DNA from: Roseibium sp. TrichSKD4
GTDB lineage: Bacteria > Pseudomonadota > Alphaproteobacteria > Rhizobiales > Stappiaceae
Reading direction: 5' to 3'
Length of the DNA: 64,000 bases
Assembly (NCBI RefSeq): GCF_000148725.1
Contig: NZ_GL476317.1
Span: 30,546 to 94,545 of the forward strand
Made by a program: the position numbers and the translations under genes. Below the pieces are notes generated by a model that was not told the DNA's origin, searched no databases, and saw nothing but the letters and a program-made list of their open reading frames with translations. Of this stretch, positions 1,056-29,535 are shown one piece after another; the stretch's first letter is position 1; every line of letters begins with the position of its first letter.

Positions 1056-1057
1056 TC

Positions 1058-1606
1058 ATGGAAAGAAGTGTGGCGCAGGTCGCCCTGTTTACAGCTTTGA
1101 TTGCCGTTTTGGGGATCATTCCGAAAATCACCTTGGGCTTTGGCGTGCCAATAACGGCGCAAAGTCTTGGTGTGATGCTGTGTGGAACTGTTATTGGAGC
1201 GAGAAGGGGCACTTCAGCCGTGCTCTTGTTTCTTGTCCTCGTAGCAATCGGACTGCCGCTCTTGTCAGGTGGCCGGGGGGGATTAGGTCTCTTTGTTTCC
1301 CCTTCAGCTGGTTTCCTGATTGGGTGGCCGGTTGCGGCGTTTGCAACAGGCTGCATCGTGGAGCGGTGGCGATCCGCCCCGTTGATGTTATCTGCTAGCC
1401 TTGCTTCTATTGTTGGTGGAATTGGCGTGATGTACATTTTCGGCATTGTCGGATTGTCCATCGCATTGGACAAAACACTGGTTCAATCGACGTTTCTGGT
1501 CAGCGCATTTATCCCCGGAGATATTGTGAAGGCATTGATCGCGGGCGGTCTGACAGCCTGGATCGCGCTGGTCCGTCCAGCATCATTGCTATCACGACGT
1601 TCGTGA
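1058..1606 (+). CDS. bioY: BioY: biotin-binding S component
   Basis: Integral membrane substrate-binding subunit that captures biotin. 182 residues, the normal length for BioY, with about six hydrophobic helices. The Gly-rich stretch GGRGGLGLFVSPSAGFLIGWP (around residues 70-90) is the BioY signature region. The start follows bioN by 2 nt with GAAGGAG upstream. With bioM and bioN it forms a complete biotin ECF transporter. No biotin synthesis genes are visible, so this may be a salvage locus, but the upstream side is outside the window. Confidence 0.92.
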   Translation: MERSVAQVALFTALIAVLGIIPKITLGFGVPITAQSLGVMLCGTVIGARRGTSAVLLFLVLVAIGLPLLSGGRGGLGLFVSPSAGFLIGWPVAAFATGCIVERWRSAPLMLSASLASIVGGIGVMYIFGIVGLSIALDKTLVQSTFLVSAFIPGDIVKALIAGGLTAWIALVRPASLLSRRS

Positions 1607-1777
1607 TGCCCAAGCAACCGTCTATAGTATCAAACTAGCAGCAGATTGAGCCGATTCAGCTGCGGATTCAATGGCTCAAGGAATCTATACTCCTTTGACT
1701 GAATTGGCCTGATTTTGCGGGCCATTTGATTCAAATTGCCACATGTCATAGCATTGATTGGTGTGCATTGTGGGGCG
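1607..1777. other. Intergenic DNA, probable left flank of IS630-type element
   Basis: No gene seen. Short direct and inverted matches occur here, but I could not define a convincing terminal inverted repeat pair with the DNA after 2848, so the insertion sequence boundary is left open. Confidence 0.4.
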
Positions 1778-2848
1778 ATGAACGAAAAGCCCTCAAAAAC
1801 GATTTCGCTAACTGACGAACAACGCCTTGCGCTTGACGCCATTTGCCGCCGTCGTAAAGTTGATGCCCTTGTCTAGAAACGCGCACGTGCGTTTTTTCTG
1901 TTGGATGCAGGCTATGATGCCGCTCTTGTCTGCGAGATTTTAGATATAGGGCCTACGGTTCTGACGGAATGGCGTTTTGCCTTTGCGGGTGCGGGGCTGT
2001 CGTTCTTTGGCTTGAAGGACTACAGCCAACGGCAGCGGTATTTGACGGTGGATCAAGAGCAGGCTGTAAAGGCTCATTTCAGCGAACACCCTGCGCGCAA
2101 TGTCGATGAGGTCTGCGCTCATGTTTTGGCTGAATATGGTCAGAGCTACAGCCCTTCGGGTGCGGCCAAACTGATGCGCCGTTTGGGGTTCGAGTATAAA
2201 AAGCCAAGATTGCTGCCCTCACAGGCTGATGAAGCCACGCAGGCTGCGTTTATTGCTAACTATGAGGCTCTAATGAAGAGCCTTGCCGTAGATGAGATGG
2301 TTGTGTTTTCTGATGCTGTCCACCCAGAGCATCAAAGCCGGCCTGCCCATGGCTGGTTCCCCAAGGGTCAAAAGACCGCTCTGAAGGCATCATCGGGGCG
2401 CAAGCGGCTCAACATACAAGGCGCGCTTGATCTTGAGACCTTCCACTTCACCTTTGTTGAGGGTGAGAAGATCAACGCGCAGACGAGCAAACAGATGTTG
2501 GAAAAGTTGGAGCACAACAACCCGACAATGACGGCCATTCATGTGTTTGTGGACAACGCGCGCTATCATCACGCCAAGATACTGCAGCCATGGCTGGACA
2601 GCCCAGAGCGCAAGGTAAAGCTGCACTTTCTGCCAGCATATGCGCCCCATCTGAACCCGATTGAACGCCTTTGGGGTGTCATGCACAAATGGGTGACATA
2701 CAATCGGCACTACGCTACCTTTGGCCAATTCACTGAGGCCATACTGGGCTTTTTTCGCAAGACGCTGCCTGATAATTGGAAAGAGTTCCGCGACACGATC
2801 AGCGACAATTTCCGTGTCGTCTCGCTCAAGGAATACAAGGTTATTTAG
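1778..2848 (+). pseudogene. IS630-family DDE transposase with in-frame amber stop
   Basis: Transposase of an IS630-type insertion sequence. The frame opens with ATG at 1778 and runs to 2848 (about 356 codons) except for one TAG at 1874-1876; both sides are in the same frame. After the stop come a helix-turn-helix region, then a DDE domain: an Asp in VVFSDAVHPEHQ, an Asp in VFVDNARYHH, and a Glu in LNPIERLWGVMHKW. The sequence after the TAG reads KRARAFFLLDAGYDAAL, in register with the family. A CAG-to-TAG change would explain it. An internal start near 1901 would give 315 residues lacking part of the N-terminal DNA-binding domain, so activity is doubtful. Confidence 0.85.
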
Positions 2849-3141
2849 GAGGAGATCGTCGGAATAGCCAATGACTACAATAGAACTTTGCTGCGTTACG
2901 CTTGAAGCATCATTTGTAAAATACTATCAAACGATAGTTTGTTAAATTTCATAGACTTATCGTGATAGTCAAGGGGCTTTCCTTCGTTTCCAATCGTGAC
3001 GTACCTGACGGTTCAAGAGGCAGCTAGCCGCATCCACGCCGCCTGATCCCTGCACTGGCCTCTGACACCGTCGGACGGAATTTTAAAATTCTGCGTACCA
3101 CATTTGACACCGCCCACGGGAACAATCATCCTGCTGAAATC
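2849..3141. other. Intergenic region with a small inverted repeat
   Basis: No gene recognised. A perfect 6-4-6 inverted repeat, ACTATC-aaac-GATAGT, lies at 2923-2938, and a related CTTATCGTGATAG follows near 2960. These could be operator half-sites for the dehydratase gene at 3142, or part of the insertion sequence end. Confidence 0.4.
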
Positions 3142-4092
3142 ATGTATCCCAATCCAGACACCATTGCCGCTGCTGCCCCATTGATCGCCCCTTACCTCCG
3201 TAAGACACCAATGCTGGAAGTCGAGGCCAAAGCACTTGGCCTTCCATGCGCCGTGAGCTTCAAGCTGGAGCACACCCAGAGAACAGGCACATTCAAAGTG
3301 CGCGGTGCGTTTTTCAACATGCTGACCCGAGATGTTCCAGAAACCGGCGTCGTTGCGGCCTCTGGCGGAAACCATGGTGCAGCGGTTGCCTATGCGGCAA
3401 CCACCCTGGGCCATCATAGCCGAGTTTTTGTACCTGCCCTCATAGCGAAAGAAGAAAAGCTGAAGCGGATGCGCCACTTTGGGGCCGAAGTGGTGATGAC
3501 CGAAGGCTCTGTAGGCGCCTGTATGGAAGAATATGCCGCCTATGCCGATGCCACCGGCGCGCTTTCTGTGCACCCCTATGACACAATCCCAACGCTCACC
3601 GGTCAGGGCACAATCGCCTATGAGATTGAAAAGCAGATGACCCTCATGGATCAGGGAGGCGTCGATACGATTATTGTTTCTACCGGTGGTGGTGGCTTGA
3701 TCGGCGGCGTCGCCGCCTGGGCCCAGGATCGGATCAAAGTGGTTTCTGTTGAGACGGAGGGGACTAACACATTGGAACGGTCCCTTCGAGAAGGGCCTGA
3801 TATTGACGTCGGTGCAAGCGGCGTAGCAGCAAGTTCACTCGGAGGGCCACGTCTTGGTGTAGACAGCTATGCTGTGATCAAAGACTACGTGAATGACGCC
3901 GTGATCGTTCCCGACAGTGCTGTTTTTGAGGCTGCGTCCCGTCTATGGGAGGCCACGCGCCTGATTGGAGAGCCCGGCAGTGCCGTCGCCTTGGCGGCAC
4001 TCACCTCTGGAGCTTATATACCCGAAAAGCAAGAGAGAATTTGCGTCGTTCTTTGTGGTGGCAATGAAGTGCCTGATTGGTTTCTGGAATGA
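3142..4092 (+). CDS. Serine/threonine dehydratase-family PLP enzyme
   Basis: Fold type II PLP enzyme, 316 residues, the usual length for single-domain biodegradative threonine/serine dehydratases and related racemases. The PLP lysine sits in GTFKVRGAF (about residue 53), the Asn loop is SGGNHG (about 75-80), and the phosphate-binding loop is STGGGGLIGG (about 177-186). There is no C-terminal ACT regulatory domain. It probably deaminates L-threonine or L-serine (or hydroxy-amino acids) to a 2-oxo acid, but the substrate cannot be set from sequence. It stands alone between two degraded regions. Confidence 0.82.
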   Translation: MYPNPDTIAAAAPLIAPYLRKTPMLEVEAKALGLPCAVSFKLEHTQRTGTFKVRGAFFNMLTRDVPETGVVAASGGNHGAAVAYAATTLGHHSRVFVPALIAKEEKLKRMRHFGAEVVMTEGSVGACMEEYAAYADATGALSVHPYDTIPTLTGQGTIAYEIEKQMTLMDQGGVDTIIVSTGGGGLIGGVAAWAQDRIKVVSVETEGTNTLERSLREGPDIDVGASGVAASSLGGPRLGVDSYAVIKDYVNDAVIVPDSAVFEAASRLWEATRLIGEPGSAVALAALTSGAYIPEKQERICVVLCGGNEVPDWFLE

Positions 4093-4217
4093 CCTAAACC
4101 GATATTTCCCAATTCAATTCTCCAGAAAAAAATAGAAAGATCACGCATTGCGACCACTGGCTGATGTTCGCCCTCAAATACGGCCAATTCGGTCGTAGGA
4201 GTATAGAATTCATATAG

Positions 4218-4778
4218 ATCACATCTAACACGCAAATTAGTTATGTCGGAATAGATGATGTTTCTGCAGCAAAGCTGGCAACAGAATATCTCATTTCGCT
4301 GGAGCATCGAAAAATCGCCTATATCTCCGGAGGCACTGCCGATATACGCAGTGACCTCCGTCACGCGGGATACCAAATGGGTCTCAAGGAATTCAAAAAC
4401 GAACTTCGGGACTGGAGGCTGGACGGCGACGGAACAGCAGAAAGTGGCCGCGCGGTTGTCGAGCGGCTGTTCATCAAGGGCGAAGTGCCAACGGCCTTTT
4501 TCTGCTTTAACGACAACATCTCTGTTGGCGTGATATCTACTTTGCAATTGCGCGGCTATCGCATACCCGATGATTTTTCAGTCATTGGCTTTGACGACAT
4601 CCCGTTCGCGAGCAATTTTTCTCCCGGGCTTACCACGATCCGCCAACCCCGCCAGCGGATCGGCGAATTGGGGATGAACTTGCTGTTGGATACTCTTTCC
4701 AACCGCACGATGCCGTCGGAGATCCACAAACTGCGCGACGATCTGATTGTTAGAAACAGCTGCGCAAGCACCCCGTAG
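4218..4778 (+). pseudogene. LacI-family transcriptional regulator, C-terminal remnant
   Basis: Only the second half of a LacI/PurR-type regulator remains. The frame opens after a TAG at 4215 and reads directly into the periplasmic-binding-like effector domain: YVGIDDVSAAKLATEYL, then RKIAYISGG, then FCFNDNISVGVISTLQLRGY, IPDDFSVIGFDDIPFAS and LTTIRQP. The helix-turn-helix head and roughly the first 120 residues are missing, and I found no fragment of them in the 120 bp upstream. An ATG at 4377 could start a stub that cannot bind DNA. Likely a decayed regulator of a lost sugar operon. Confidence 0.8.
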
Positions 4779-4821
4779 TAATCTGATTAACGTCGAAATG
4801 GTCCCATTTTGCATGTTCCAC

Positions 4822-4840
4822 AAACGAACACGGTTCGTTT
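4822..4840. terminator. Perfect 8-3-8 inverted repeat, terminator- or operator-like
   Basis: AAACGAAC-acg-GTTCGTTT, 44 bp after the LacI remnant stop. The T-rich right arm would fit a weak intrinsic terminator; a LacI-type operator from the former locus is the alternative. Confidence 0.4.
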
Positions 4841-5014
4841 CCCTTCAGGCCGATCAGATATTCGACGAAAAGCAAGGGCGACGTTTCATGTGCTGAAGAT
4901 AACGATCATTCGCTTTGGGGTTGCGCAGTGACCTGACGAACCGGGCGGCGGTAAATTTGCTCTCTGGAAGCTACTAACTCATTGGCACTATTGTCGATTG
5001 CCTGCCCTAGGCAC

Positions 5015-5055
5015 CCTGATCTCCCAGTGCCCAGTTTCATTCCGAGAGGCGCGCC
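5015..5055. repeat. 41-bp dispersed repeat, copy 1
   Basis: This 41-bp segment (beginning cctgatctcc and ending gaggcgcgcc) recurs in the same orientation at 15840-15880 with 38 of 41 bases identical. The flanking sequence does not match. Both copies sit in gene-poor stretches near insertion sequences, which suggests remnants of one mobile element or a shared recombination substrate. Confidence 0.75.
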
Positions 5056-5147
5056 GTCTGGCCATTGCATTCTGAAAACTAACGATAGATCTTGAAGGAT
5101 GGCTTTAAACCATCCATTCTGAAAACCTCTTTGGAGGTCCGAGGTAG

Positions 5148-5597
5148 ATTAACACCCAAAGCATCGCCTCTTGGGAAAGATTCTACGCTGAGAGTTCAGA
5201 CACTGGTGCTGGAAACTTCAGCACCGATCACACTCTTGCAATTCATACTGCAATCGATCTTGAAGTGCTACGCGCCCTAGGAACTGGATTGGCTCAGCTC
5301 ATGCCCATGGGTTCTCACAAAGAAGTGCATCGGCGCGTTGCCGACAAAGGGTTACGAGAAGAGGCCGAGGACATGCTCGCTAAGGTGAAACAGCAGGTGC
5401 CGTCACGGTTGGAAAAGAATAAGCAAGCGCACCCATGCCTCGTCGGCAGCTTCATGACAAAGCAACCAGCCCAACGGCGAGGAGGTCAACTAGTTTCTGG
5501 CCTTAGATACGAGCGAAAGGAGTTTTGTGTCGGTTCGGTACATGGTGTGAGCTTCCGTGGGTTTAAGCAGGCTGAGGCCTTGCGGGGCGGTCCTTGA
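5148..5597 (+). pseudogene. Unidentified protein remnant
   Basis: The frame is open from just after a TAG at 5145 to 5597 and its middle part (about 5160-5430) reads like real protein: ERFYAESSDTGAGNFSTDH, then LAIHTAIDLEVLRALG, then a charged amphipathic stretch KEVHRRVADKGLREEAEDML. No good start or ribosome binding site lies before the conserved-looking part, and the tail runs antisense into the convergent EamA gene. I do not recognise the family. It looks like the C-terminal end of a decayed enzyme gene, matching the decay of the LacI gene before it. Confidence 0.35.
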
Positions 5598-6486
5598 GTG
5601 CGACGACGACAGTTGCCAGCACGATGCAGGCGGCGGCTGCGTAAAAGGCAGGTGCTGGAAGGATGTCAAAGAAAATGGCATCTGCAATGACTGCGAATAT
5701 CAGGGAGAGATACTCAAATGCGGCCAGTTTTGAGACTTCGCTGCATTGATAGCTGAGGGTCATCATGATGTGAGCAAAGCCGCCGGCGATACCTGCTCCC
5801 ACCAAAAGACCGAGCTGTTCGAAACTTGGGCTAACCCAACCAAATGGCAGGGTGGCCAGTCCCGCAATTGTGCAGGTGAGGGCAAAGTAAAATGCAATGG
5901 CTCCGGCATTTTCGGTGAGCGCAAGACTTCTGATCTGCAGCTTCGCGCCTGCCGTGAGAATGGCCATGGCGAGCGCCAGTCCAACTCCAATCAGATAGGT
6001 GTCATCCAATGAGGCTGTGTTGGCATTTGGAAGGATCAGGCAGAGTACGCCGAGGAACCCGAAAAGGACACCAAACCATCTCGCACCACTGACCACTTCC
6101 TTCAGGAAAACAGCAGCAAGGACAACAGCCAAAATCGGTGCGAGATACCCAATCACTGAAGCATGGGATAAGGGCAGGTATTTCAGGGAGGAGAAAGATG
6201 CAAACATTGCCGCACAGCCTAAAAGGCACCGGAACACATGGCGCCACGGGCGCCTTGTCTTGAGTCCACTCGGGAATTCGTGTGTCCACATCAAAAACAG
6301 AACGAGCGGTATCAGTGCAAAAGCGCTGCGAAAAAACACCAACTGTCCAACCGGTACAGTGTCAGACAGCCATTTGATAAAGAGCACCATGATCGTGAAG
6401 AAAATGGTGGCACCAATGCGCAGGCTGATGCCCCGGAAGTCTGCTGTTATAGTCATTTCAATCCGAACTGTTTGTTCAGCGCCCAT
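5563..6486 (-). CDS. EamA/DMT-family inner-membrane transporter (exporter)
   Basis: Drug/metabolite-superfamily transporter of about 297-307 residues with ten predicted membrane helices in two EamA repeats; typical pieces are FFRSAFALIPLVLF, SHASVIGYLAPILAVVLA and GVLFGFLGVLCLI. Such proteins usually export metabolites. Two starts are possible: ATG at 6486, overlapping the stop of the upstream permease by 11 bp, or ATG at 6456 with GGA upstream. Either way it is the last gene of the minus-strand ABC cluster, so its cargo may be linked to the ligand imported by that ABC system. CntI of Pseudomonas, which exports the metallophore pseudopaline, belongs to this family; that parallel is inference. 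Confidence 0.82.
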   Translation of the reverse strand: MGAEQTVRIEMTITADFRGISLRIGATIFFTIMVLFIKWLSDTVPVGQLVFFRSAFALIPLVLFLMWTHEFPSGLKTRRPWRHVFRCLLGCAAMFASFSSLKYLPLSHASVIGYLAPILAVVLAAVFLKEVVSGARWFGVLFGFLGVLCLILPNANTASLDDTYLIGVGLALAMAILTAGAKLQIRSLALTENAGAIAFYFALTCTIAGLATLPFGWVSPSFEQLGLLVGAGIAGGFAHIMMTLSYQCSEVSKLAAFEYLSLIFAVIADAIFFDILPAPAFYAAAACIVLATVVVALKDRPARPQPA

Positions 6487-7336
6487 CTAGCCTGTCGCGG
6501 AGCCGATCGCCTGTTAAATTGATTGCCAGCACCGCAAAAAGGATTGCAAGGCCGGGAAAGATCATGAGATGCGGGGCAGTTTGCATATAGGTCTTACCGT
6601 CAAGCAACATAGCCCCCCATTCCGCATTGGGAGGCTGAACGCCGAAACCCAAGAAACTCAATCCGGAGATTGATAAAATGCTGCGGGACCAACCATTTGT
6701 CCAAAGAACAAGGAGGTTGGGCAGAACATTGGGGAGTATGTGGCGGCTTAATATGAGCGCGGGCGGAAGGCCATTGAGGCGCGCCTGCAACACATAGTCC
6801 TTATTGGAAATCGAGACACTCAGGCTGCGCACCAGCCGTGCGTATTTCATCCAGCTGACAGCAATCAATGCGAAAACCATGTTGGACGTACTCGGTCCCA
6901 AAAGCCCTGCTATTGTTACAGCTGCGATCAGCTCGGGAAACGCGAAGAAGCTGTCTGAGACGCGCATCAATACAACGTCCGCTGCGCGGCCGAAATGCCC
7001 CGCTGTTAGACCGATAATGGTGCCAATTACCGCGCCCACGGATGTAATCACCAAGGCGAGGCCGATTGACCAGAGACCACCATAAAGAACGCGCGTTGCA
7101 ACATCTCGACCCAGTTGGTCTGTTCCAAACCAGTGCTCGCTGCTCGGCGGAGACAGACGCAGCAGAAAATTGGTTGCATTGGGATCATACGGTGTCAACA
7201 TCAAAGCTGAACACCATATTGCAGCCACGGCCAGCGGCATGAGAAGCGTACTTCGTTTGAAACGCCGGTTTATTGTGGTTCGACTGGGTTTCGATTGAGG
7301 TTGGAGGTGATCGTGCCCGGTTTCAATGGATGTCAT
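6476..7336 (-). CDS. ABC transporter permease, DppC/NikC type
   Basis: Second inner-membrane permease of a peptide/nickel/opine-class importer, 286 residues. The N-terminal cytoplasmic segment is followed by a hydrophobic helix (LLMPLAVAAIWCSALML), then the family motif HWFGTDQLGRDVATRVLYGG (about residues 70-90) and the EAA-type coupling loop (ARLNGLPPALILSRHILPN). I chose the ATG at 7336 because it overlaps the upstream permease stop as ATGA; a start at 7366 is 10 residues longer. Translational coupling along the cluster points to one operon. Confidence 0.9.
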   Translation of the reverse strand: MTSIETGHDHLQPQSKPSRTTINRRFKRSTLLMPLAVAAIWCSALMLTPYDPNATNFLLRLSPPSSEHWFGTDQLGRDVATRVLYGGLWSIGLALVITSVGAVIGTIIGLTAGHFGRAADVVLMRVSDSFFAFPELIAAVTIAGLLGPSTSNMVFALIAVSWMKYARLVRSLSVSISNKDYVLQARLNGLPPALILSRHILPNVLPNLLVLWTNGWSRSILSISGLSFLGFGVQPPNAEWGAMLLDGKTYMQTAPHLMIFPGLAILFAVLAINLTGDRLRDRLDGR

Positions 7337-8343
7337 GACGTTTGCTCCGTGTTGACGGAGGTGCACGTAATCGACGAACTCCAGCCTTTCCGCGGATCAA
7401 GCAAGTCCTGCAATAATTCCACCAAGCTGTTAATAGCAACATAGGTCAGTGCAAAGAAGACAACCAAAAACAAGATGACAGGGTAATCGCGCGACAGCAC
7501 CGAACCCGCCAAAAGTGACCCGACACCGCCTCGTGCAAAAATGATCTCGACGATTACTGCACCTTCCAGCAGGCTGGCGACATCAAGTGCGATCATGTTG
7601 AGGGCAGGAATTGCAGAGTGACGCAAGATGTGTCGCCAAAAAATCTCTGTTTCACTGACACCGCGCAACCGAAGTGTTTCGACAAAGGGGGCTGATTTCG
7701 CTTCAAGGAAAAAGGCACGCAACAAGCGTGTTTGCGATGCGGTCACCCAAAGGCCGAGCGTCAGCGTTGGCAAGATCAAGTGGCTTAACGAGCCAGTTCC
7801 ATATGCCGGCAGCCAATTAAGGTGGGCAGCAAAGAACATGATCAGAAGCAAACCAAGCCAGTAACTCGGCATGGCGGCACCAATAGATGCCAATGCGACG
7901 GCAAAACGATCAATGAACGATCCCGGACGCCAAACAGAAACCGTCGCCAGAAGAAATGCCAAAACAAGTCCGAAGAGTAACGCCGACACCGTTAGAATAG
8001 CGGTTTCGCCGATATTTCCAACGAAAATTTCCCAGACAGTTGCCCCGGAAGAAAAGGACCGTCCAAAGTCGCCCTGCAAAAAATTTTTGAGCCAGTGAAA
8101 ATACTGGACCAGAAAGGGGTCGTTCAAGTGAAACTCCACGCGGATGGCGTTCAGAATATCCGTTGGGAAAGTCTGGGATTCCGGATAGCGGGCTTTTGCA
8201 ATTGCCTGTGCTTTGTCGCCCGGGGAGAGGTGGATCATGGCAAAGCTGATCAAGCTCACACCAAACAAGACGCTTAGGAGTGCCAGCAGCCTTGATCCAA
8301 CTGCATAAAGCATAGGTGCGTTTCGTTGTTGACGTAGCTTCAT
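7333..8343 (-). CDS. ABC transporter permease, DppB/NikB type
   Basis: First permease of the same importer, 336 residues. It has the classic DppB opening, a membrane helix followed by FAMIHLSPGDKAQAIA, then helices and a coupling loop (RLRGVSETEIFWRHILRHS). The C-terminal LLQDLLDPRKGW is also family-typical. Its start overlaps the stop of the ATPase gene upstream by ATGA, and its stop overlaps the next permease in the same way. Substrate class (peptide, nickel or metal-opine) is not decidable from the permease. Confidence 0.9.
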   Translation of the reverse strand: MKLRQQRNAPMLYAVGSRLLALLSVLFGVSLISFAMIHLSPGDKAQAIAKARYPESQTFPTDILNAIRVEFHLNDPFLVQYFHWLKNFLQGDFGRSFSSGATVWEIFVGNIGETAILTVSALLFGLVLAFLLATVSVWRPGSFIDRFAVALASIGAAMPSYWLGLLLIMFFAAHLNWLPAYGTGSLSHLILPTLTLGLWVTASQTRLLRAFFLEAKSAPFVETLRLRGVSETEIFWRHILRHSAIPALNMIALDVASLLEGAVIVEIIFARGGVGSLLAGSVLSRDYPVILFLVVFFALTYVAINSLVELLQDLLDPRKGWSSSITCTSVNTEQTS

Positions 8344-9143
8344 ACGTCTGCCCCCCTTTCATATGAAGAAGGAATTGCCGGTCCGGACAAGCTTCCGAGC
8401 GCGCGTGCAGCTAAAACAAGGTCCCGGCAATAAGGGCTGGCCGGGTCGTGAAAGAAATCTGCCGCTGTCTGATTGGCCTCCACCTTGCCGTTCTTAAGAA
8501 CCATCACTTGATCTGCATAGGCGGATGCAAACCCAAGGTCATGAGTGACAATGAGATACATAATTTCGTACTTGAGCTGGATGCGCTTCATCGTAGCAGC
8601 GATCTGCTTCTGAACCACGGCGTCCAGCGCACTCAAGGGTTCATCAAAGAGGATTAATGACGGATTGGCGATCAGGGCACGTGCTAAACAGGCTCTTTGG
8701 GCTTGTCCCATAGAAACTTCAGATGGCAACCTTGTGGCCACATCAGGGTTCAATTCAACGTCAAGCAAGGCTTGACGAACCGCCGCGTCGACATCCATTT
8801 TCGGCATACTGCGCCTGTAGAGGCTCTCCGATATGGATTGACCCAAGGGGATCTTCGGATTGAGGGCAGCTATGGGATCTTGCATGACCCATCGGCTGCC
8901 AGGCATGCCGATGGGCCCACGCCACTGACCCTTTTGGCGAATTTCCGCTTGACGATCACCTTGAAAGGAAATCCCTTCAAAGTAAGCAGGCATAAGGCCT
9001 TGAATAGACTTCAATAAGCTTGTTTTGCCGGAGCCGCTTTCTCCAACGATGCAGAGCGTTTCACCAGGCTCGACAGTGAATGAAACATCATCAAGGAGCG
9101 TTTGGCCGTTGATTGAAAGGCCAAGTCTTTGAATGTTCAGCAT
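8340..9143 (-). CDS. ABC transporter ATPase, DppF/NikE type
   Basis: ATP-binding subunit, about 267 residues from the ATG at 9143. Walker A is GESGSGKTSL, the Q-loop is WVMQDPIAALNP, the signature region reads EVSMGQAQRACLARAL (SMGQ instead of SGGQ), Walker B is SLILFDEPLSALD, and the switch histidine is IVTHDLGFAS. The 9143 start follows the previous gene's stop by 8 nt; a start at 9200 would add 19 unrelated residues. The C-terminal CRDLVLAARAL resembles the end of nickel/peptide ATPases but lacks the long Cys-rich oligopeptide tail. Confidence 0.88.
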   Translation of the reverse strand: MLNIQRLGLSINGQTLLDDVSFTVEPGETLCIVGESGSGKTSLLKSIQGLMPAYFEGISFQGDRQAEIRQKGQWRGPIGMPGSRWVMQDPIAALNPKIPLGQSISESLYRRSMPKMDVDAAVRQALLDVELNPDVATRLPSEVSMGQAQRACLARALIANPSLILFDEPLSALDAVVQKQIAATMKRIQLKYEIMYLIVTHDLGFASAYADQVMVLKNGKVEANQTAADFFHDPASPYCRDLVLAARALGSLSGPAIPSSYERGADV

Positions 9144-9151
9144 AGTGGCGT

Positions 9152-9952
9152 CTATTCCGCAGCCATAGAAGGAGCAATAAAGTCTCCTTGAGGACACCAA
9201 AGACGGTTCGCTGCCAACAATTGCCCATAGGGTGTTTGCGGATCTTCAATTAGTTGGCGTGTCTCACCAAACTCATGGATTTTTCCGCCGCTCATGATTG
9301 CAGTACGAGATGCATGGCGAACGGCGAGCGCCAAGTCATGTGTCACGATCAAAATGGCTACGCCATTTGACTTCGCATAGGTTGTAACTGTCTCCAAAAC
9401 CTGAGCGGCAATAATTGGATCTAACGCAGAAGTTGGCTCATCCAAAACCAAAAGGCGCGGCCTTCCAAGTAAGGCCATTGCAACAAGCAATCGCTGTTGC
9501 ATGCCGCGGCTCCACTCATATGGGAAAGCCCGATCAGGTGTTCTTAGTCCTAAATCTTGGACGAGCTTGTCTTCATCGGCAGCTTCATGTGAGGTGCCAA
9601 CCACAACACGAGCGCCCTGCCGCCATTGCCAGGCCAAACGTTTGAGCGGGTCAAAACCGTGATCGGGGTTCTGTGGGACATAAGCCAAACCAGGGCGTTT
9701 AGTCGTCTTGGTTGTTTGAGTGAAATCAGTTTCAACGCCATCAAAAATCATATGACCGGCATAGGGTTGTGCAGGGCGGGTCACGCCCAGAAGGCATCGA
9801 AGCAGCGTTGATTTTCCAGCTCCTGACCCCCCCACAATCGCAACGCACTCGCCGTCTGCGATTTCAAGGTCGACCGAGTGAAGGATGGTCTGTCGGCCTA
9901 TACGGGCCGACAGATTCTTCAATGTCAGAATTGGATTGCAATTAATGGGCAA
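9152..9952 (-). CDS. ABC transporter ATPase, DppD/NikD type
   Basis: Partner ATPase, 266 residues. Walker A is GGSGAGKSTLL, the Q-loop is LAYVPQNPDHGFDP, the signature region is EWSRGMQQRLLVAMAL (SRGM for SGGQ), Walker B is LLVLDEPTSALD, and the H-loop is IVTHDLALAVRH. The start is a TTG overlapping the end of the substrate-binding protein gene by 11 bp; no better in-frame ATG precedes the conserved core, so translation is probably coupled. Both ATPases of this importer have unusual signature motifs, which is common in the Dpp/Nik class. Confidence 0.85.
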   Translation of the reverse strand: MPINCNPILTLKNLSARIGRQTILHSVDLEIADGECVAIVGGSGAGKSTLLRCLLGVTRPAQPYAGHMIFDGVETDFTQTTKTTKRPGLAYVPQNPDHGFDPLKRLAWQWRQGARVVVGTSHEAADEDKLVQDLGLRTPDRAFPYEWSRGMQQRLLVAMALLGRPRLLVLDEPTSALDPIIAAQVLETVTTYAKSNGVAILIVTHDLALAVRHASRTAIMSGGKIHEFGETRQLIEDPQTPYGQLLAANRLWCPQGDFIAPSMAAE

Positions 9953-11510
9953 GGTCCAAATCCGGTGTGACGAGGTATGTTTCTGCCGGGTGGATCCTAT
10001 ATCCGGAGATCATGCCATTTCCGACGGATACTTGTGTTTTGTGGAACACCGGGATTAGTGGTAGGTCGTCATTGAGGATTTCCTGTATCCGGTCATAGTG
10101 AACCTTCCGCAGCTCATCATCGAAATCTGCGCGTCCCTTCGCCAACAATTCATCGAGCTCCGGGTTGGAGTAGCCTGAAAAGTTGTAGCTAACATCGGTC
10201 TCGACAAGTGTACTTGGAAAGTAGTCCGGGTCGCCTTGAGGCGCCGTGCCCCAAGCTTGAAGATGCATATCAATCTCACCGGCCTTTAGGGCATTGTTGT
10301 TCGCATCATATTCGCCGATCGCAATTTCAGCATTGATCCCGATCTGTTGCAGGAGAGCTTGGGTTATCTCCAGTGTTGGCCGCAGTGCAGGCCGCCCCTC
10401 ATAAGACCGGATCTTCAAGACCAGTTCTTCACCATTCAGCTCGCGGTTGCCATCGCCGTTGGTGTCTTTGATGCCAGCTTCATCTAGAAGGGTTATGGCC
10501 TTTTCTGGGTCATAATCGAGGGTAAGGTCCGAATTCACCCATGAAGCCATGGTTGCTGGAAAAAGGCTGTTTGCAGGCGCACCGCCAACACCGGATAGGA
10601 CCGCATCCACTATGGTTTTACGATCCAGCCCCAAAGAGACTGCTTGCCGCAAGGTTTTGTTTGCCAGCGGGCCTTCTGAGGTTTTTACCTGGAAAAAGAA
10701 AAGACGGGTGGTTTCTCCTTCGAACAATTGCCCGTCCCCAGTTTCCTTCAGCTTTGCGAAGTCTGGTTCTGGATAGTTAGTAACAAGATCCACATCGCCC
10801 GACCGCAAAGCCAGCGCCGCAACTGCAGCATCTGAGAGCGCATCCATGGTGATTGTGTCAAGCTTGGGCTCACCGCCCCAATAATCAGCAAACTTGCGGG
10901 TCTCGTAATATTTCTCTGTTTCTGCCGAAACGAAGACAAAAGGTCCTGTACCAACAAGCGGCAGCTCATCTGTGCCATCTTTCAAAACAGCCGCAGATGG
11001 CTCGGTCAGTGACCATAGAAACGCAGAATTCGGACTTTGGGTCTTGAACACCAGCGTGTGCGGGTCCTGGATGGTAATTCTCTCAATTCCCAGCAGACGG
11101 GACAGACGGGGGTTGTGCCCCGGATGACCTTCGATATCGAGTTTTTCAAAAGATGCTTTGACATCTTCAGCGGTCATTTTGCTTCCGTCATGGAAGAGCA
11201 CATCGTCTCGAAGGATAATTTTCCACTCGGTCGGGGATAGGTTTTCAAAACGCGTTGCCAGACGCGGCTGCATGGTCATGTCATAGCCAAGTCCGATCAG
11301 GGTTTCCGAAACCCCCGCGCGGTTGCTGAGCCAGCCATTTTGGCGCGCTCTCGGATCCGGAACACTGCTTTTAGGACCGAAAGGAACGGCAATTCGCAGA
11401 TTTTTTTCGGCTGCTGCTGCTTTGGTCGTAACGGCAGCCAAACTGGCGGCTGACATTAATCCCAAACAGGTAACAGCTGACACAAAGGACCGGGTGGAAA
11501 ACAATTTCAC
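9942..11510 (-). CDS. Periplasmic substrate-binding protein, family 5 (NikA/DppA/CntA class)
   Basis: Captures the ligand in the periplasm. 522 residues with a signal peptide ending near AAVTTKAAAA (residue about 34). Family 5 features: RFENLSPTEWKIILRDDV, FHDGSKMTAEDVKASFEKL, LVGTGPFVF, LRQAVSLGLDRKTIVDAVL and PLIPVFHKT. The start is GTG at 11510 with AGGAG 9 nt upstream. The opening AVPFGPKSSVPDPRARQNGW resembles metal- or opine-binding members more than oligopeptide binders, but this is only an impression. It is the first gene of the ABC cluster, 128 nt after nrdF on the same strand. Confidence 0.85.
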   Translation of the reverse strand: MKLFSTRSFVSAVTCLGLMSAASLAAVTTKAAAAEKNLRIAVPFGPKSSVPDPRARQNGWLSNRAGVSETLIGLGYDMTMQPRLATRFENLSPTEWKIILRDDVLFHDGSKMTAEDVKASFEKLDIEGHPGHNPRLSRLLGIERITIQDPHTLVFKTQSPNSAFLWSLTEPSAAVLKDGTDELPLVGTGPFVFVSAETEKYYETRKFADYWGGEPKLDTITMDALSDAAVAALALRSGDVDLVTNYPEPDFAKLKETGDGQLFEGETTRLFFFQVKTSEGPLANKTLRQAVSLGLDRKTIVDAVLSGVGGAPANSLFPATMASWVNSDLTLDYDPEKAITLLDEAGIKDTNGDGNRELNGEELVLKIRSYEGRPALRPTLEITQALLQQIGINAEIAIGEYDANNNALKAGEIDMHLQAWGTAPQGDPDYFPSTLVETDVSYNFSGYSNPELDELLAKGRADFDDELRKVHYDRIQEILNDDLPLIPVFHKTQVSVGNGMISGYRIHPAETYLVTPDLDLAH

Positions 11511-11574
11511 TGAACTAAACTCCTGAAGGGACGGGTTTGGATAACTGGAGAATTAAAGTCCGGTATTATCATGA

Positions 11575-11589
11575 TGTAATGTTATTACA
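11575..11589. promoter_or_regulatory. Palindrome upstream of the ABC cluster (Fur-family/Zur-like candidate)
   Basis: TGTAAT-GTT-ATTACA is a perfect 6-3-6 inverted repeat between nrdF and the substrate-binding protein gene, 65 bp upstream of its GTG. Size and symmetry fit operators of Fur-family metal sensors such as Zur, but I cannot match it to a verified consensus. Confidence 0.45.
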
Positions 11590-11638
11590 ATAGACGATGA
11601 GTCTTAAACTACAATTTTGTTTCGTTGCGGCTGATTTT

Positions 11639-14768
<3,130 letters not shown>

Positions 14769-14787
<19 letters not shown>

Positions 14788-15173
14788 AATCTTGTCATCC
14801 CCTGATCAACACGCTGAAGATCGGTGTCTGTCCCACTTAGTTCGAACCGGTAGAGCACCGGCACGCTGCACTTTTTCGAAATCACATCCCCTGCGATTGC
14901 GAAGTAGCTTCCAAAGTTCCGGTTTCCCGTGGCGATGACGCCCTTGAGAAAAGACCGGTTCCGCGCATCATTCAAAAACCGGATCACCTGCTTTGGCACT
15001 GCGCCATGGCCTTCGCCATCTGCAAAGGTCGGCGTGATCAGGACAAACGGACCCAGAACAGACGGCAAATCTTCTGTCTTGTTTCTCGGGATCCGAGTGG
15101 CCTGATGGCCAAGGCGATGTATGAAACGGTCAGTGTTGCCGGATGCGCTGGAAAAATAGGCCAGCTGCCCCAC
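14769..15173 (-). CDS. nrdI: NrdI: flavodoxin-like activator of NrdF
   Basis: FMN protein that supplies superoxide or peroxide to assemble the Mn2-tyrosyl cofactor of NrdF. 134 residues. The FMN phosphate loop is [12 protein letters not shown] (residues 6-17) and the conserved loop [17 protein letters not shown] and [14 protein letters not shown] flank the flavin. The start is GTG at 15173, 3 nt after the nrdH stop. Its presence supports the Mn form of this reductase. Confidence 0.95.
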
Positions 15174-15176
15174 GGT

Positions 15177-15398
15177 CTAGCCGAGAGCTGCGATCTTGTC
15201 CGGCCGGAAGCCTGCCCAGTGGTCGCCGCTGACTTCGACAACAGGAACCTGCGCATATCCAAGGGCCAGGACATGCGCAAATGCATCATTGTCCTGGCTC
15301 AGATCGATGACCTGATAATCAACGCCGCGCTGTTCAAGCGCACGATAAGTGGTATTGCACTGGACACAGGAAGGCTTGCTGTAAACGGTGACGGTCAT
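15177..15398 (-). CDS. nrdH: NrdH: glutaredoxin-like electron donor
   Basis: Small redoxin that reduces NrdE. 73 residues starting MTVTVYSKPSCVQC; CVQC is the NrdH-type active site. SGDHWAGFRPDKI is the C-terminal family motif. The true start is ATG 15398; an open frame upstream to 15515 is non-coding leader. First gene of the operon, directly behind the cobalamin riboswitch. Confidence 0.96.
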   Translation of the reverse strand: MTVTVYSKPSCVQCNTTYRALEQRGVDYQVIDLSQDNDAFAHVLALGYAQVPVVEVSGDHWAGFRPDKIAALG

Positions 15399-15513
15399 GT
15401 TGTCTTGCACCCCGAAGAGATCAATCAAATGATGACGGCAGACACGGAGGCGCGACGGGGCAATTACCCCATTTTCTCGCCACCTCGGACCCGCCGTCCG
15501 TGGACGTTTTTCC

Positions 15514-15700
15514 ATTCAAGGCAGGTCTCCTGGCTCACAGGTCAGTGCCGGGTGCATCCGCCTTCCCGGTTTCCCAGTGGCACAGTGGATGCAGGCTCGC
15601 TGTTTACAGTTGCGGGGGCAGCGCCGGGATTGGTTTCTCTCCGCACCGGCTTCCCTCTTCGCTGATGTTCCCAGGAAGGAATCATCAGACCTTGAACACT
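15514..15700 (-). ncRNA. Cobalamin (AdoCbl) riboswitch upstream of nrdHIEF
   Basis: On the minus strand the leader shows the cobalamin riboswitch core in order: GTTCAAGGT near the 5' end, GGGAAGCCGGTGCG, the invariant GCCCCCGCAACTGT, GCGAGCC, the B12 box GCCACTGG (about 15574-15581), GGGAAGGCGG, and the 3' closing GAGCCAGGAGACCTGCC (ending near 15517). The roughly 115 nt between it and the nrdH ATG hold a hairpin (ATGGGG-taatt-GCCCCGT inside GGCG/CGCC) that may be the expression platform. It should shut off the B12-independent reductase when cobalamin is plentiful, a known logic in bacteria that also have B12-dependent NrdJ. Confidence 0.95.
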
Positions 15701-15839
15701 AGATAGGGTATATGCGCAGGGGCGCGTGTCAACAAATTGTATCTGTGCGGCAAAACAACAACGTGGACAACCGGTGTCCCTGGCTCCTAGATAGCGGCGG
15801 CCGTCCGAAAACAACCTCCGGCCAATATATTCTGGAAAT

Positions 15840-16591: not shown

Positions 16592-16870
16592 ATGGCTACG
16601 AAACGTCACAAGCCAGAAGAAATTGTCTCGAAGTTGCGGCAGGTTGAAGTCCTTGTCGGCCAAGGCATGCCGCGCATTGATGCCATTCGGCAGGTTCGTA
16701 TCACCGAACAGACGTATTACCGGTGGCGAAAGCAGTATGGTGGGATGGGAACCGACCAACTGAAAGAACTCAAACGCCTTCAGAAAGAGAACGAGCGGCT
16801 GCGCAAGGCAGTGTCTGACCTGACCCTGGACAAGTTGATCTTGTCGGAGGCCGCAAAGGGAAACTTCTGA
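16592..16870 (+). CDS. IS3-family OrfA
   Basis: DNA-binding part of the transposase, 92 residues. A helix-turn-helix (KPEEIVSKLRQVEVL ... QVRITEQTYYRWRKQYGGM) is followed by a leucine-zipper-like helix (LKELKRLQKENERLRKAV), the usual OrfA layout of the IS407 group. It ends in SEAAKGNF with the programmed frameshift site just before the stop. Complete, start preceded by GGAGGATC. Confidence 0.92.
   Translation: MATKRHKPEEIVSKLRQVEVLVGQGMPRIDAIRQVRITEQTYYRWRKQYGGMGTDQLKELKRLQKENERLRKAVSDLTLDKLILSEAAKGNF
16858..16864 (+). promoter_or_regulatory. Programmed -1 frameshift heptamer
   Basis: G GGA AAC has the canonical X XXY YYZ form and is correctly phased to the OrfA frame two codons before its stop. 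A -1 slip enters the OrfB frame, which is open across this point, giving the OrfAB fusion transposase. Confidence 0.75.
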
Positions 16871-16920
16871 GCCCCGCCCGTCGTCGAGCCTGCATCAATC
16901 ACATTCGTCAGCATCTCGGC

Positions 16921-17718
16921 GTGTCAGAGCGCCGAACCTGTCGTGTTCTGGGTCAGCACCGGTCTACGCAGAGGAAACCTCCAGCAGGGCGTGCTGACGA
17001 AGAACATCTTGTGGCGGATATGATCGCACTCGCCCGTGAGTTTGGCCGTTACGGTTACAGGCGTATTGCAGCTCTGCTCAGAGATGCTGGTTGGCATGTG
17101 AATGACAAGCGTGTTGAGCGGCTGTGGCGACGAGAGGGGCTGAAAGTGCCAATGAAACAACCGAAGAGAGGGCGGCTCTGGCTGAACGACGGATCATGTG
17201 TCCGGCTGCGGCCAGAGTATCCCAATCATGTCTGGAGCTATGACTTCGTGCACTGCCGAACCAATGAAGGAAAAGCGTTCCGGACACTGAACATCCTGGA
17301 CGAGTATTCCCGAGAGTGCCTGGCAATCCGGGTGAAGCGAAATCTGAACTCCACCGACGTGATTGATGTGCTAACGGATCTCTTCATCCTGCGAGGTGTT
17401 CCAGCCTACATCAGATCAGACAATGGGCCGGAGTTCATTGCTCAGGCAGTCAGGGACTGGATCAACGCTGTGGGTGCAAAGACCGCGTACATCGAACCAG
17501 GTTCGCCATGGGAGAACGGATACTGCGAGAGCTTCAACGCCCGCCTCCGAGATGAGCTACTCAATGGTGAAATCTTCTACAGCTTAAAGGAAGCACAAAT
17601 CCTGATTGAACAATGGAGGAAACATTACAATACCAAACGCCCACACAGCGCCTTGGGCTACCGACCACCGGCACCAGAAACCATCGTCCGGATGGACCAA
17701 AGCCCAGTCATGCACTAA
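16921..17718 (+). CDS. IS3-family OrfB (integrase-type transposase)
   Basis: Catalytic part, 265 residues from the first ATG-like start, but the frame is open back to 16858 and is normally made as the OrfAB fusion by -1 frameshifting. It shows an HTH_21 region (REFGRYGYRRIAALLRDAGW), then the rve core with DDE residues: Asp in VWSYDFVH, Asp in IRSDNGPEF, Glu in GSPWENGYCESFN. It ends KRPHSALGYRPPAPE, the IS3 tail. All motifs are intact, so the element may be active. Confidence 0.93.
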   Translation: MSERRTCRVLGQHRSTQRKPPAGRADEEHLVADMIALAREFGRYGYRRIAALLRDAGWHVNDKRVERLWRREGLKVPMKQPKRGRLWLNDGSCVRLRPEYPNHVWSYDFVHCRTNEGKAFRTLNILDEYSRECLAIRVKRNLNSTDVIDVLTDLFILRGVPAYIRSDNGPEFIAQAVRDWINAVGAKTAYIEPGSPWENGYCESFNARLRDELLNGEIFYSLKEAQILIEQWRKHYNTKRPHSALGYRPPAPETIVRMDQSPVMH

Positions 17719-17752
17719 CAATCAAAACGGACCACTCAGGTGGGGCTGATCA

Positions 17753-17969
17753 ACATCACCAAGCCGAACACGTTAAAGATCGCGACTTCGGGCTGGTCAA
17801 GCGCCATCATGGTAATCTGGAGCCCAACATGGACGCTGGTTCCAACGATCATCCCGACCCGGCAAAGTGACAACAACCGCGCATCTCGCTGAGACATGCC
17901 TGGCGGCGTTGCAATCACCGCGGCAACGGCTTGCCCAGCAGCGTCGCTCACTTTGTCGACAATGCGCAT
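17753..17969 (-). pseudogene. 5' fragment of a membrane-associated protein gene cut by the IS3 right end
   Basis: A minus-strand frame starting at ATG 17969 (GGAG about 16 nt upstream) reads MRIVDKVSDAAGQAVAAVIA and then two hydrophobic segments (LCRVGMIVGTSVHVGLQ; VAIFNVFGLVMLIS) until it hits the insertion sequence end at 17752. It looks like the cytoplasmic N-terminus and first membrane helices of a larger protein. I could not find the rest on the left side of the element, so a deletion may have accompanied insertion. Family not recognised. Confidence 0.4.
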
Positions 17970-18222
17970 GTCGTGCCCCAGTCCATCTCCAAAACAATGC
18001 GTCTGAAAATCCAGCCAACTGACGATGTTGGCTTCTCGCTGCACATAGGTTAAGCTGCAGGGGCTACACTGCATCAAAAGTCGACTTACGTCAGCGAAAT
18101 AAAGCTGTTCTGTTGGGATTTGAAACAGGAGAGGCTAGTAGATCAGGGCCTAAACCAAGAGGGGGTCCAAGGCAGCGTAAGCGCATCATCGACAGCCCAC
18201 CTGAATTCACAGCCTGGAATCT

Positions 18223-18256
18223 GTCGGTCGCCACACGGGACTGTGCAGCGACCGAC
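18223..18256 (-). terminator. Nested hairpin downstream of the ALDH gene
   Basis: Perfect 9-bp arms GTCGGTCGC and GCGACCGAC enclose an inner CACA/TGTG stem. It lies 10 nt after the stop of the minus-strand operon. There is no T-run, so it may act as an mRNA 3' barrier or a Rho-linked end rather than a textbook intrinsic terminator. Confidence 0.45.
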
Positions 18257-18265
18257 TAATCAGTC

Positions 18266-19771
18266 TTATCGTGTTGGCAGAATGTCTTCAGGGATGTCCT
18301 GATAACAGACAGGGCGCAGGAACCGCCTGATTGACAGAGTTCCGACCGAGGTCGCCCCGAAATTGGTGGAAGCCGGGTAAGGTCCGCCATGCACCATGGC
18401 ATTCGCCACTTCCACACCAGTCGGGAAAGCATTTGCTAATACGCGACCCGCCTTGCGTTCCAAGAACTTGAGCAGATCACGGGCGACTTCTGTATCACCA
18501 GAATTCATCTGCAAAGTTGAGGTTAATTGACCTTCTAGCGATTTCGCAATTCGGGTGAAATCTTCCACGCTGTCTGCCACAACAATCAGGCCAAGAGGAC
18601 CGAAGACTTCTTCAGCGAGCTTCTCATTCTTGAGCCATTCGTCCGCTGTGACTTTGAAAAGTTGCGGCGAGGCTTCCCGCTCACCTGCTTCGGTGGCGAG
18701 CAACTGCTCGACATTAGCTGCTTCTTGCACGGCCTGGGTGCCAGAGCGGTAGGCAGAGGCAATGCCAGGCGTCAGCATGACCTGCGCCCCGATGCTCGAA
18801 AGGGCGTCCTTCGCCGCAGCTGCAAAGGCGTCTGCATGCTCTTTCAGGATCACGATAATTCCGGGATTGGTGCAGAATTGCCCTGCTCCCATAGTCAGTG
18901 ATCCGGCCCAGGCTGTTGCAATCGTTGCGGCGCGCTCTGCCCCCGCCTCCGGCAGGATAAAGACCGGATTGACCGATCCAAGCTCGCCAAAGAACGGGAT
19001 CGGCTCTGGCCGCGACGCACATAGATCAAAAAGCGCGCGACCTCCGCGAAGGCTTCCTGTGAAACCAACAGCCTTGATCAAAGGGTGCTGAACCAGCCGT
19101 GTTCCGGTTTCTCGCTTGCCGCCTTGAACAACGGAGAAGACGCCGGGATGGATACCGCAGCTCTTGATCGCGGCCAAGATGGCTTCCGCCACGATTTCTC
19201 CGGTGCCCGGATGGGCCGAATGGCCTTTGACAACCACAGGACACCCAGCGGCTAAAGCCGCTGCGGTATCACCGCCAGCCGTCGAAAAGGCGAGTGGGAA
19301 ATTGGATGCGCCAAAGATAGCAACAGGACCAATCGGGCGCTGGATCAATTTCAGATCCGGGCGCGGCAATGGCTGGCGATCCGGCAGAGCCTCGTCATGG
19401 CGCTGATCCAGATACGCACCGTCCAGAATATAGCTTGCAAAGAGACGGATCTGACCTGTGGTTCGGCCCCGTTCGCCTTGCAGCCGAGCTTGCGGGAGAC
19501 CTGTCTCCTTCATGCCGATTTCGGTGATCTGCTCGCCGTGCGCCTCGATCTCGTCAGCAATCGCATTCAAAAACTTCGCACGCTCCTCGCGCGTAGAATA
19601 ACCGTAGGACCAAAACGCTTCTTCTGCTGCTTCCACGGCTGCATCTATATGAGCAGGCAATCCAATAGAAATAGCATCAGGTTCGCCCGTTGCCGGCTCA
19701 GACAAAAACGTCTGGTCTGCAGCAACCCACTCTCCGGCAATCAGATGTTTTCCATGAGGTTTGAAAGTCAT
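18266..19771 (-). CDS. Aldehyde dehydrogenase, alpha-ketoglutaric semialdehyde (2,5-dioxovalerate) type
   Basis: NAD(P)-dependent oxidation of 2,5-dioxopentanoate to 2-oxoglutarate is the likely reaction. 501 residues. The Rossmann region has PIGPVAIFGASNFPLAFSTAGGD, the catalytic Glu is in FFGELGSVNPVF, and the catalytic Cys in GAGQFCTNPG; the ending SVGTLSIRRFLRPVCYQ is typical of the KGSADH subgroup. It is the last gene of the sugar-acid operon, 13 bp after the PdxA-like gene, and would feed the product of the DHDPS-family enzyme into the TCA cycle. Other semialdehyde substrates are possible. Confidence 0.85.
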   Translation of the reverse strand: MTFKPHGKHLIAGEWVAADQTFLSEPATGEPDAISIGLPAHIDAAVEAAEEAFWSYGYSTREERAKFLNAIADEIEAHGEQITEIGMKETGLPQARLQGERGRTTGQIRLFASYILDGAYLDQRHDEALPDRQPLPRPDLKLIQRPIGPVAIFGASNFPLAFSTAGGDTAAALAAGCPVVVKGHSAHPGTGEIVAEAILAAIKSCGIHPGVFSVVQGGKRETGTRLVQHPLIKAVGFTGSLRGGRALFDLCASRPEPIPFFGELGSVNPVFILPEAGAERAATIATAWAGSLTMGAGQFCTNPGIIVILKEHADAFAAAAKDALSSIGAQVMLTPGIASAYRSGTQAVQEAANVEQLLATEAGEREASPQLFKVTADEWLKNEKLAEEVFGPLGLIVVADSVEDFTRIAKSLEGQLTSTLQMNSGDTEVARDLLKFLERKAGRVLANAFPTGVEVANAMVHGGPYPASTNFGATSVGTLSIRRFLRPVCYQDIPEDILPTR

Positions 19772-29484: not shown

Positions 29485-29535
29485 GAAGCTCCTGTTCCAG
29501 CCAGCGGTCCCGCACCGCTTTAGTTCCGCTGCGTC

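Follow-up and report, generated by a model that had tools for sequence, protein, structure and literature searches.

A Zur-type box ahead of a conserved importer-EamA cassette beside a cobalamin riboswitch-nrdHIEF operon in Roseibium sp. TrichSKD4

The present study concerns a locus on the minus strand of a 64,000-nt stretch of Roseibium sp. TrichSKD4 (contig NZ_GL476317.1, positions 30,546 to 94,545), the whole of which is called the window below. In this locus, a cobalamin riboswitch, the nrdHIEF genes of a class Ib reductase, a palindrome, a five-gene ATP-binding cassette (ABC) importer of the NikA/Opp class and an EamA transporter gene follow one another in this order on one strand, and this arrangement, described in a first-pass annotation made from the letters alone, was confirmed by Rfam and family-model matches. 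The comparison with relatives showed that the importer and the EamA gene are a separate six-gene cassette, which is the conserved unit, whereas the union with nrdHIEF in the window appears to be local. We consider it reasonably probable that two neighbouring starvation units meet here, namely riboswitch-nrdHIEF and a Zur-repressed importer-EamA cassette. The features are as follows, in window coordinates.

15503..15709, minus strand: cobalamin riboswitch, 5' of nrdH (Rfam RF00174, 124 bits)
15177..15398, minus strand: nrdH (TIGR02194, 99.2 bits, cut-off 85.75); start inferred, probably 15398, in a reading frame open to 15515
14769..15173, minus strand: nrdI (TIGR00333, 152.6 bits, cut-off 74.65)
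12640..14787, minus strand: nrdE, class Ib reductase alpha (TIGR04170, 1240.7 bits, cut-off 750)
11639..12628, minus strand: nrdF, class Ib reductase beta (TIGR04171, 475.8 bits, cut-off 355)
11575..11589, no strand assigned: Zur-type box TGTAATAACATTACA, 64 nt ahead of the first importer gene
9942..11510, minus strand: solute-binding protein that forms a subfamily of its own within the NikA/Opp class (PF00496, SBP_bac_5)
9152..9952, minus strand: importer ATPase 1 (PF00005; nearest model TIGR02770 nikD, below cut-off)
8340..9200, minus strand: importer ATPase 2 (PF00005; likely start near 9143)
7333..8343, minus strand: importer permease 1 (BPD_transp_1; nearest model NF045470, Opp2B nickel permease, 292.9 bits, cut-off 350)
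6476..7366, minus strand: importer permease 2 (BPD_transp_1; nearest model NF045474, Opp2C nickel permease, 299.7 bits, cut-off 300)
5563..6486, minus strand: EamA/DMT-family transporter, last gene of the cassette (PF00892, 85.5 bits)

The genes of the importer, earlier described as five overlapping genes, overlap or all but abut one another, although the exact overlaps depend on the start codons; likewise, the overlap of up to 11 bp claimed between the last permease gene and the EamA gene reaches 11 bp only if EamA starts at 6486, and a start 30 nt later is equally likely. The gap between nrdF and the binding-protein gene, which lie on the same strand, is 128 bp. Within this gap (11511-11638, minus strand) no terminator-like site was listed, and a single weak promoter-like site (9/12) was listed at 11642-11614; both scans returned counts near or below chance (19 versus 14.4 and 3 versus 8.9) and are weak evidence either way. 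Because the cassette lies downstream of nrdF without an evident terminator, transcription from nrdF through into the importer is conceivable and might possibly occur.

The conservation of the cassette was assessed in relatives at two distances, whose loci and genomes are numbered with L and G, respectively. The close tier holds nine relatives (L003-L011), found in a single scan of named genomes and with binding proteins 68-83% identical to that of the window, and eleven (L143-L153) from 390 genomes drawn from a larger order and 87 genomes of one family, whereas the mid-tier holds 21 more distant cassettes (L154-L173 and L001), with binding proteins 43-50% identical. The closest cassettes found belong to Roseibium and Labrenzia (76-83%). 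The order binding protein, ATPase, ATPase, permease, permease, EamA is kept in all 20 close relatives, with the EamA gene of L150 running into the contig end, and the EamA counterparts in L003-L011 are 62-80% identical; in other words, the EamA gene, which the first-pass annotation had tied to the importer, is an integral partner. The mid-tier cassettes keep the importer, and EamA follows it in 12 of 21, shortened to 175 aa in L158. However, the same annotation had treated nrdHIEF and the importer as one module, a proposal that is rejected here as far as the conserved unit is concerned, since each of the two, cassette and nrdHIEF, is found in the absence of the other. Within the fetched stretches, nrdHIEF adjoins none of the 20 close cassettes, where upstream DNA is short in L004 (about 0.6 kb), L005 (1.3 kb), L007 (2.2 kb) and L150 (2.6 kb); it adjoins one of the 21 mid-tier cassettes (L154, divergent); and no cassette was found beside any of the 26 nrd loci in the family of genome G008. 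Mid-tier cassettes are preceded by COG0523 (6/21), DUF1826 (7/21) and DUF6525 (16/21) genes, a DUF1826-like gene lies near the close-tier cassette L009, and a ZrgA zinc-uptake operon is found nearby in four of 41 relatives (L008, L167, L170 and L171), with a Fur-family gene alongside it in L008, L167 and L171. In L010, the gene immediately upstream of the cassette (8659-9720) encodes a cation diffusion facilitator.

The palindrome ahead of the importer, earlier likened to a Fur-family site, is borne out and, to judge from its sequence, is specifically a Zur-type zinc box. The pattern TGTAATRNYATTACA, with at most 2 mismatches, matches once in the window versus 0.17 matches expected. A match of at least 13/15 to TGTWATRNYATWACA no more than 220 nt upstream of the binding-protein match was observed in 21/21 close-tier loci, the window included, and shuffled sequences reach this level in 0.7%. 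The pattern was partly derived from cassette sites, and therefore the independent test is where else in the genomes it occurs. Across the 20 close-relative genomes 27 exact sites were found, with at least one site in 15 of them, whereas the pattern read backward gave no site in all 21 genomes scanned. Eight of the 27 lie at cassettes, two at znu-zur genes (zur-znuC/znuA in L105 and znuC-znuB-zur in L263), five before COG0523 GTPases (L099, L102, L245, L246 and L262), eight before a DUF1636-FecE-Peripla_BP_2-FecCD operon and one before a candidate chelator operon in L005. The names of these neighbours are backed by family searches in L258, L261 and L263 and by matches to these in L245, L246 and L253-L260, and those of L099, L102, L105 and L262 were given by reading the translations. 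In the mid-tier, a good box lies ahead of the importer in five of 21 loci (L157, L162, L163, L172 and L173), that of L163 scoring slightly below the weakest close-tier box, and in L167 and L171 a box lies at the nearby zur-zrgA operon. Because the box precedes 21/21 close-tier cassettes and also sits at zur/znu and COG0523 genes, zinc shortage is well supported as the predicted signal for the cassette, and better than any other.

This palindrome in the promoter region resembles boxes tested by electrophoretic mobility shift assay (EMSA) in Paracoccus denitrificans, where, in the available text of the report, Zur binds promoters with boxes such as GTAATATAATAACAT, one of which lies before a Ni/dipeptide ABC importer (PMC5387054). 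The motif GTTA-N5-TAAC is common to many proteobacterial Zur sites, according to the accessible part of work on Caulobacter (PMC4176598). The P. denitrificans operon, pden1338-1344, includes a COG0523 gene and two hypothetical genes and is up-regulated about 8- to 16-fold in low zinc; its authors regard direct Zur control of this importer class as somewhat unusual and leave the specificity unassigned (PMC5387054, available text). The cassette shares with this operon the Zur-type box and an importer of the cluster C/NikA class, and several mid-tier loci also share the COG0523 gene and two hypothetical genes upstream. However, the likeness is one of description, the listed order being binding protein, permease, permease, ATPase in P. 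denitrificans versus binding protein, two ATPases and two permeases here, and neither EamA nor a riboswitch is mentioned in the available text.

None of the importer proteins reached the cut-off of a curated importer family model. The best NCBIfam match of the binding protein is NF045468, Opp5A_nikA, at 248.1 bits (cut-off 600); TIGR02294 of the NikA type gave 164.6 bits (cut-off 393) and CntA (NF047575) 119.1 bits (cut-off 800); the CntA, CntC, CntD and CntF models all stayed below cut-off, and the curated peptide-importer models (DppA/OppA) were not reached. The likeness to NikABCDE thus lies in the protein classes and the nearest family models, whereas the curated Nik cut-offs are missed and a Zur-type box is present. 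Among structures in the PDB, the nickel-binding protein 3t66 is the best match by single sequence and the second by profile, after 5u4o, and the peptide binders DppA, AppA and YliB match almost as well by both methods. Across 42 cassette binding proteins, 45 polar or aromatic residues are conserved to 95% or more, and interior residues such as N133, W166, Y246, E248, Y370 and R373 are found in 98-100% of these proteins versus 0-4% of 28 other NikA/Opp-class proteins, a comparison limited to interior positions (residues near the two ends, such as R54 and H490, were dropped) because the matches of many of the 28 distant proteins are truncated at their ends. The cassette binding proteins are probably a subfamily with their own ligand. 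A metal-class importer is likelier than the plain peptide importer that had been named as the alternative. A NikR query gave no match beside the cassettes L143-L173, the window itself not having been searched for NikR.

The EamA protein matched amino-acid exporter models weakly. In opine zincophore clusters with CntABCDF and CntI/CntE, an Opp/NikA-class importer or an EamA exporter occurs under zinc control, and the combination of an importer with an EamA or major facilitator superfamily (MFS) exporter that marks opine metallophore systems is found in the window and its relatives. Unlike these clusters, the window cassette has no adjoining cntL or cntM, and the Cnt models score below their cut-offs. 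Among 40 cassette genomes, the nicotianamine-synthase-like (NAS-like) family PF03059 was found in two, one match being weak, and the cassettes of these two (L156 and L168) have no EamA; opine dehydrogenase (PF10100) was found in none of the 40, in a search that gave no match in any control genome. When the flanks of 42 loci were clustered, the 70 largest clusters held no recurring biosynthetic gene. In Sulfitobacter algicola (L005, 7078-11266), the EamA gene is directly followed by a box-led operon of a GHMP kinase, a pyridoxal phosphate (PLP)-dependent enzyme, an ATP-grasp ligase and a DUF364 protein, possibly a chelator pathway. This operon is not recurrent: the DUF364 gene occurs in one of 40 cassette genomes, and the ATP-grasp gene has a close match solely in its own genome among nine. 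Outside L005 no synthesis genes were seen next door, and therefore the ligand might be a recycled or common one. The cargo of the importer would be a metal complex and EamA would export the ligand; by way of the conserved EamA partner, an unknown zinc ligand of marine alphaproteobacteria might be tracked down. Further gene clusters touch on this subject. In genome G200 (L181, 3390-9939), whose cassette has no EamA, a cluster with a Zur-type box (14/15) holds COG0523-like genes, a NAS-like gene identified by Pfam and an MFS-like gene, the genes other than the NAS-like one being named by reading. On two Streptomyces plasmids (L179 and L180), DUF364, GHMP kinase and PLP enzyme genes, three enzyme types shared with the L005 operon, lie beside iron-type ABC and MFS genes.

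A cobalamin riboswitch that switches on a B12-free spare reductase is established logic. In the window, the riboswitch is the single Rfam match (124 bits versus a cut-off of 31.5), and NrdH, NrdI, NrdE and NrdF are adjacent and all above curated cut-offs. As for the riboswitch of the window: It shares 75% identity with the riboswitch ahead of nrd in Labrenzia L002. Of 87 genomes in the family of G008, 26 have nrdE, one copy containing stops, and a B12 box precedes nrdH in 25 of these 26 nrd loci, a pattern that the window fits; a different Opp-class importer lies nearby on the other strand in one of them (L226). Five nrdHIEF plasmid neighbourhoods likewise showed no such cassette beside nrd, and two of them have other ABC genes nearby. 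The class II enzyme NrdJ was found in 21/21 cassette genomes tested, three of which also have nrdE, and therefore a riboswitch that turns on a B12-free spare would be logical. Riboswitch-nrdHIEF thus appears to be a common B12-type backup reductase, ordinary apart from its neighbour. In L149 (oriented 17602-18648; G446:C4:408182-410035), the gene for NrdJ lies on the opposite strand, about 3 kb past the cassette. Another neighbourhood of nrd and zinc genes is found in L222 (oriented 205-7548), where two COG0523-like genes and overlapping Zur-type boxes precede riboswitch-nrdHIEF, and on the Labrenzia plasmid of L002 (3237-19628) riboswitch-nrdHIEF is flanked by two other clusters for NikA-class importers, of which one has a cobalamin riboswitch of its own and the other adjoins nikR.

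The cassette itself also shows signs of B12 control. The theme of B12 or metal shortage in the first-pass annotation holds in part, as four of the 20 close relatives (L006, L007, L151 and L152) have a cobalamin riboswitch immediately ahead of the cassette on the same strand, with only short open frames in between, although the box points to zinc first. In the other 16 no riboswitch was seen at this place, 15 of the 20 loci having been scanned with Rfam and L146-L150 by B12-box pattern only, and upstream DNA being short in four of the 20. The cassette riboswitches of L006, L007 and L152 are mutually 72-81% alike, all four are 54-57% identical to the nrd riboswitch of the window, and those of L006, L007 and L152 resemble the riboswitch before an importer of the NikA class in L002 (66-71%) more than they resemble nrd riboswitches (53-60%); that of L151 is about equally distant from all (53-63%). 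An origin as relics of a lost nrd operon is not favoured by these values for L006, L007 and L152. Exact B12 boxes numbered 60 in 20 genomes (about 115 Mb) versus 2 for the backward pattern, and for 10 of the 27 exact Zur-type boxes a B12 box was found no more than 300 bp upstream, where roughly 0.01 would be expected by chance. These ten tandem sites are of two kinds, the cassette (G004 and G106) and the DUF1636-FecCD operon (eight genomes, which are related and so not independent events). In all eight of the latter (L253-L260), a full Rfam cobalamin riboswitch is followed 241-247 nt later by the Zur-type box and then by the DUF1636-FecE-Peripla_BP_2-FecCD genes, and at the cassettes the distance from riboswitch to box is 181 nt in L006, 200 in L007, 195 in L152 and 285 in L151; the box has one mismatch in L007 and two in L151. 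The B12 link is real, as far as can be judged from these arrangements, and B12 control of the cassette would not be accidental. Right after the riboswitch in these four loci, a ribosome-site-like sequence and short open frames, of 28 codons (by reading) in L007 and L152, precede the Zur-type box and may encode a leader peptide, and in L151 (G428, oriented 8310-8324) an extra Zur-type box (14/15) lies about 230 nt before the riboswitch, besides the weaker one behind it.

Herein, we propose a scheme for the two units in the window. When cobalamin is scarce, the riboswitch would permit expression of the B12-free class Ib reductase, backing up a B12-dependent class II enzyme that the genome of the window presumably also encodes. 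Zur would repress the six-gene cassette when zinc is sufficient, and upon zinc shortage the importer would bring a zinc complex into the cell, and possibly complexes of cobalt or nickel as well, while EamA would export the ligand, which would be synthesised afresh elsewhere in the cell or reused once the metal has been released. Via read-through from nrdF, the window's cassette could be fed by B12 shortage as well, and some relatives would obtain the same double control via a riboswitch directly before the Zur box. Several observations weigh against this scheme. EamA is missing from nine of 21 mid-tier cassettes, and the box scan gave no good match in 14 of the 21 mid-tier loci, so that Zur control there is unproven; three of the 27 exact boxes have no evident zinc gene nearby (L104, L264 and L265), and five of the 20 close-relative genomes have no exact site, their cassette boxes having mismatches. 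No curated importer family is matched, nickel- and peptide-binding structures score alike, and the sequence does not separate zinc, nickel, cobalt and peptide cargo. In addition, the adjacency of nrd and cassette is rare, the relatives are non-independent lineages, and Zur, NrdJ and the wider regulon were read from the relatives' genomes and not from the window's organism.

Other explanations have to be weighed against these two starvation units. A single co-transcribed operon from riboswitch to EamA, ruled mainly by B12, agrees with the shared strand, the 128-bp gap with no terminator-like site listed and the second, divergent pairing in L154; however, the importer is preceded by its own Zur-type box, and nrdHIEF and the cassette occur apart in the fetched stretches of all 20 close relatives and at all 26 family nrd loci, which makes such an operon unlikely, if still worth keeping in view. 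A cobalt or nickel importer, with B12 or cobalt shortage as the main signal and the box read by another Fur-family regulator or by a cobalt-sensing Zur, would explain the riboswitches directly before four cassettes, the nearness of three of these (not L151) to that of the L002 NikA-class importer, the permeases nearest to nickel models and the cation diffusion facilitator gene of L010, and the majority of cobamide riboswitches are reported to govern cobalt transport or cobalamin genes (PMC7689651, available text). Yet the 16 close relatives without a riboswitch there also carry the box, which recurs at zur/znu and COG0523 genes, and we hold this explanation to be unlikely as well.

That the cassette encodes an ordinary importer of peptides or amino acids together with an amino-acid exporter, and just happens to lie near a zinc box, appears quite improbable. 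The same protein class binds di- and oligopeptides, the DppA, AppA and YliB structures nearly equal 3t66, and EamA proteins include amino-acid exporters, but the box is present in 21/21 close-tier loci, zinc genes are neighbours at mid-tier loci and L008, and the subfamily-specific residues argue for a special ligand, without naming it. Least probable of all, and by our estimate very improbable, is a true Cnt-type opine metallophore system with synthesis genes elsewhere. The exporters of opine zincophore clusters are indeed of the EamA or MFS kind and the importers of the Opp or FecCD type, cluster 5 having EamA with the Opp type (PMC7438024, available text), and a NAS-like gene lies inside the Zur-box cluster of G200; however, the two cassettes of genomes with NAS-like genes have no EamA, opine dehydrogenase was found in none of the 40 genomes in a search without a positive control, and the CntA, CntC, CntD and CntF models are below cut-off.

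Zur and cobalamin riboswitches are each well known separately, and their repeated tandem before importers would imply joint sensing of the supply of zinc and of B12. A precedent for crosstalk is found in Cupriavidus, in which some zinc is replaced by cobalt under zinc starvation (PMC11340326, available text). Going beyond the two starvation units, we tentatively suggest, as a possibility that we would not yet favour, that zinc and B12 shortage are coupled in one logic gate, in which a cobalamin riboswitch with a Zur box 180-290 nt later governs both the NikA-class importer with EamA and the DUF1636-FecCD importer. The importer with EamA might then act as a closed shuttle, carrying a zinc or cobalt complex in and the bare ligand out, so that no adjacent synthesis operon is needed. 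The gate might follow OR logic, with a second promoter at the box, or AND logic, with Zur as a road-block. Within the open-access literature, including the available text of PMC6103462 and PMC7689651 and with subscription papers outside the scope, no report of this riboswitch-Zur-box tandem was found.

Elsewhere in the window, transposase-like open reading frames were noted by reading at 1901-2848, 16592-17718 and 55179-56528, the first two flanking the region described here. A separate set of ABC importer genes lies at 26843-30519 on the strand of the cassette; by reading, it comprises two ABC-3-like permeases, an ATPase and a TroA-like binding protein, suggesting an importer of the manganese or zinc type.

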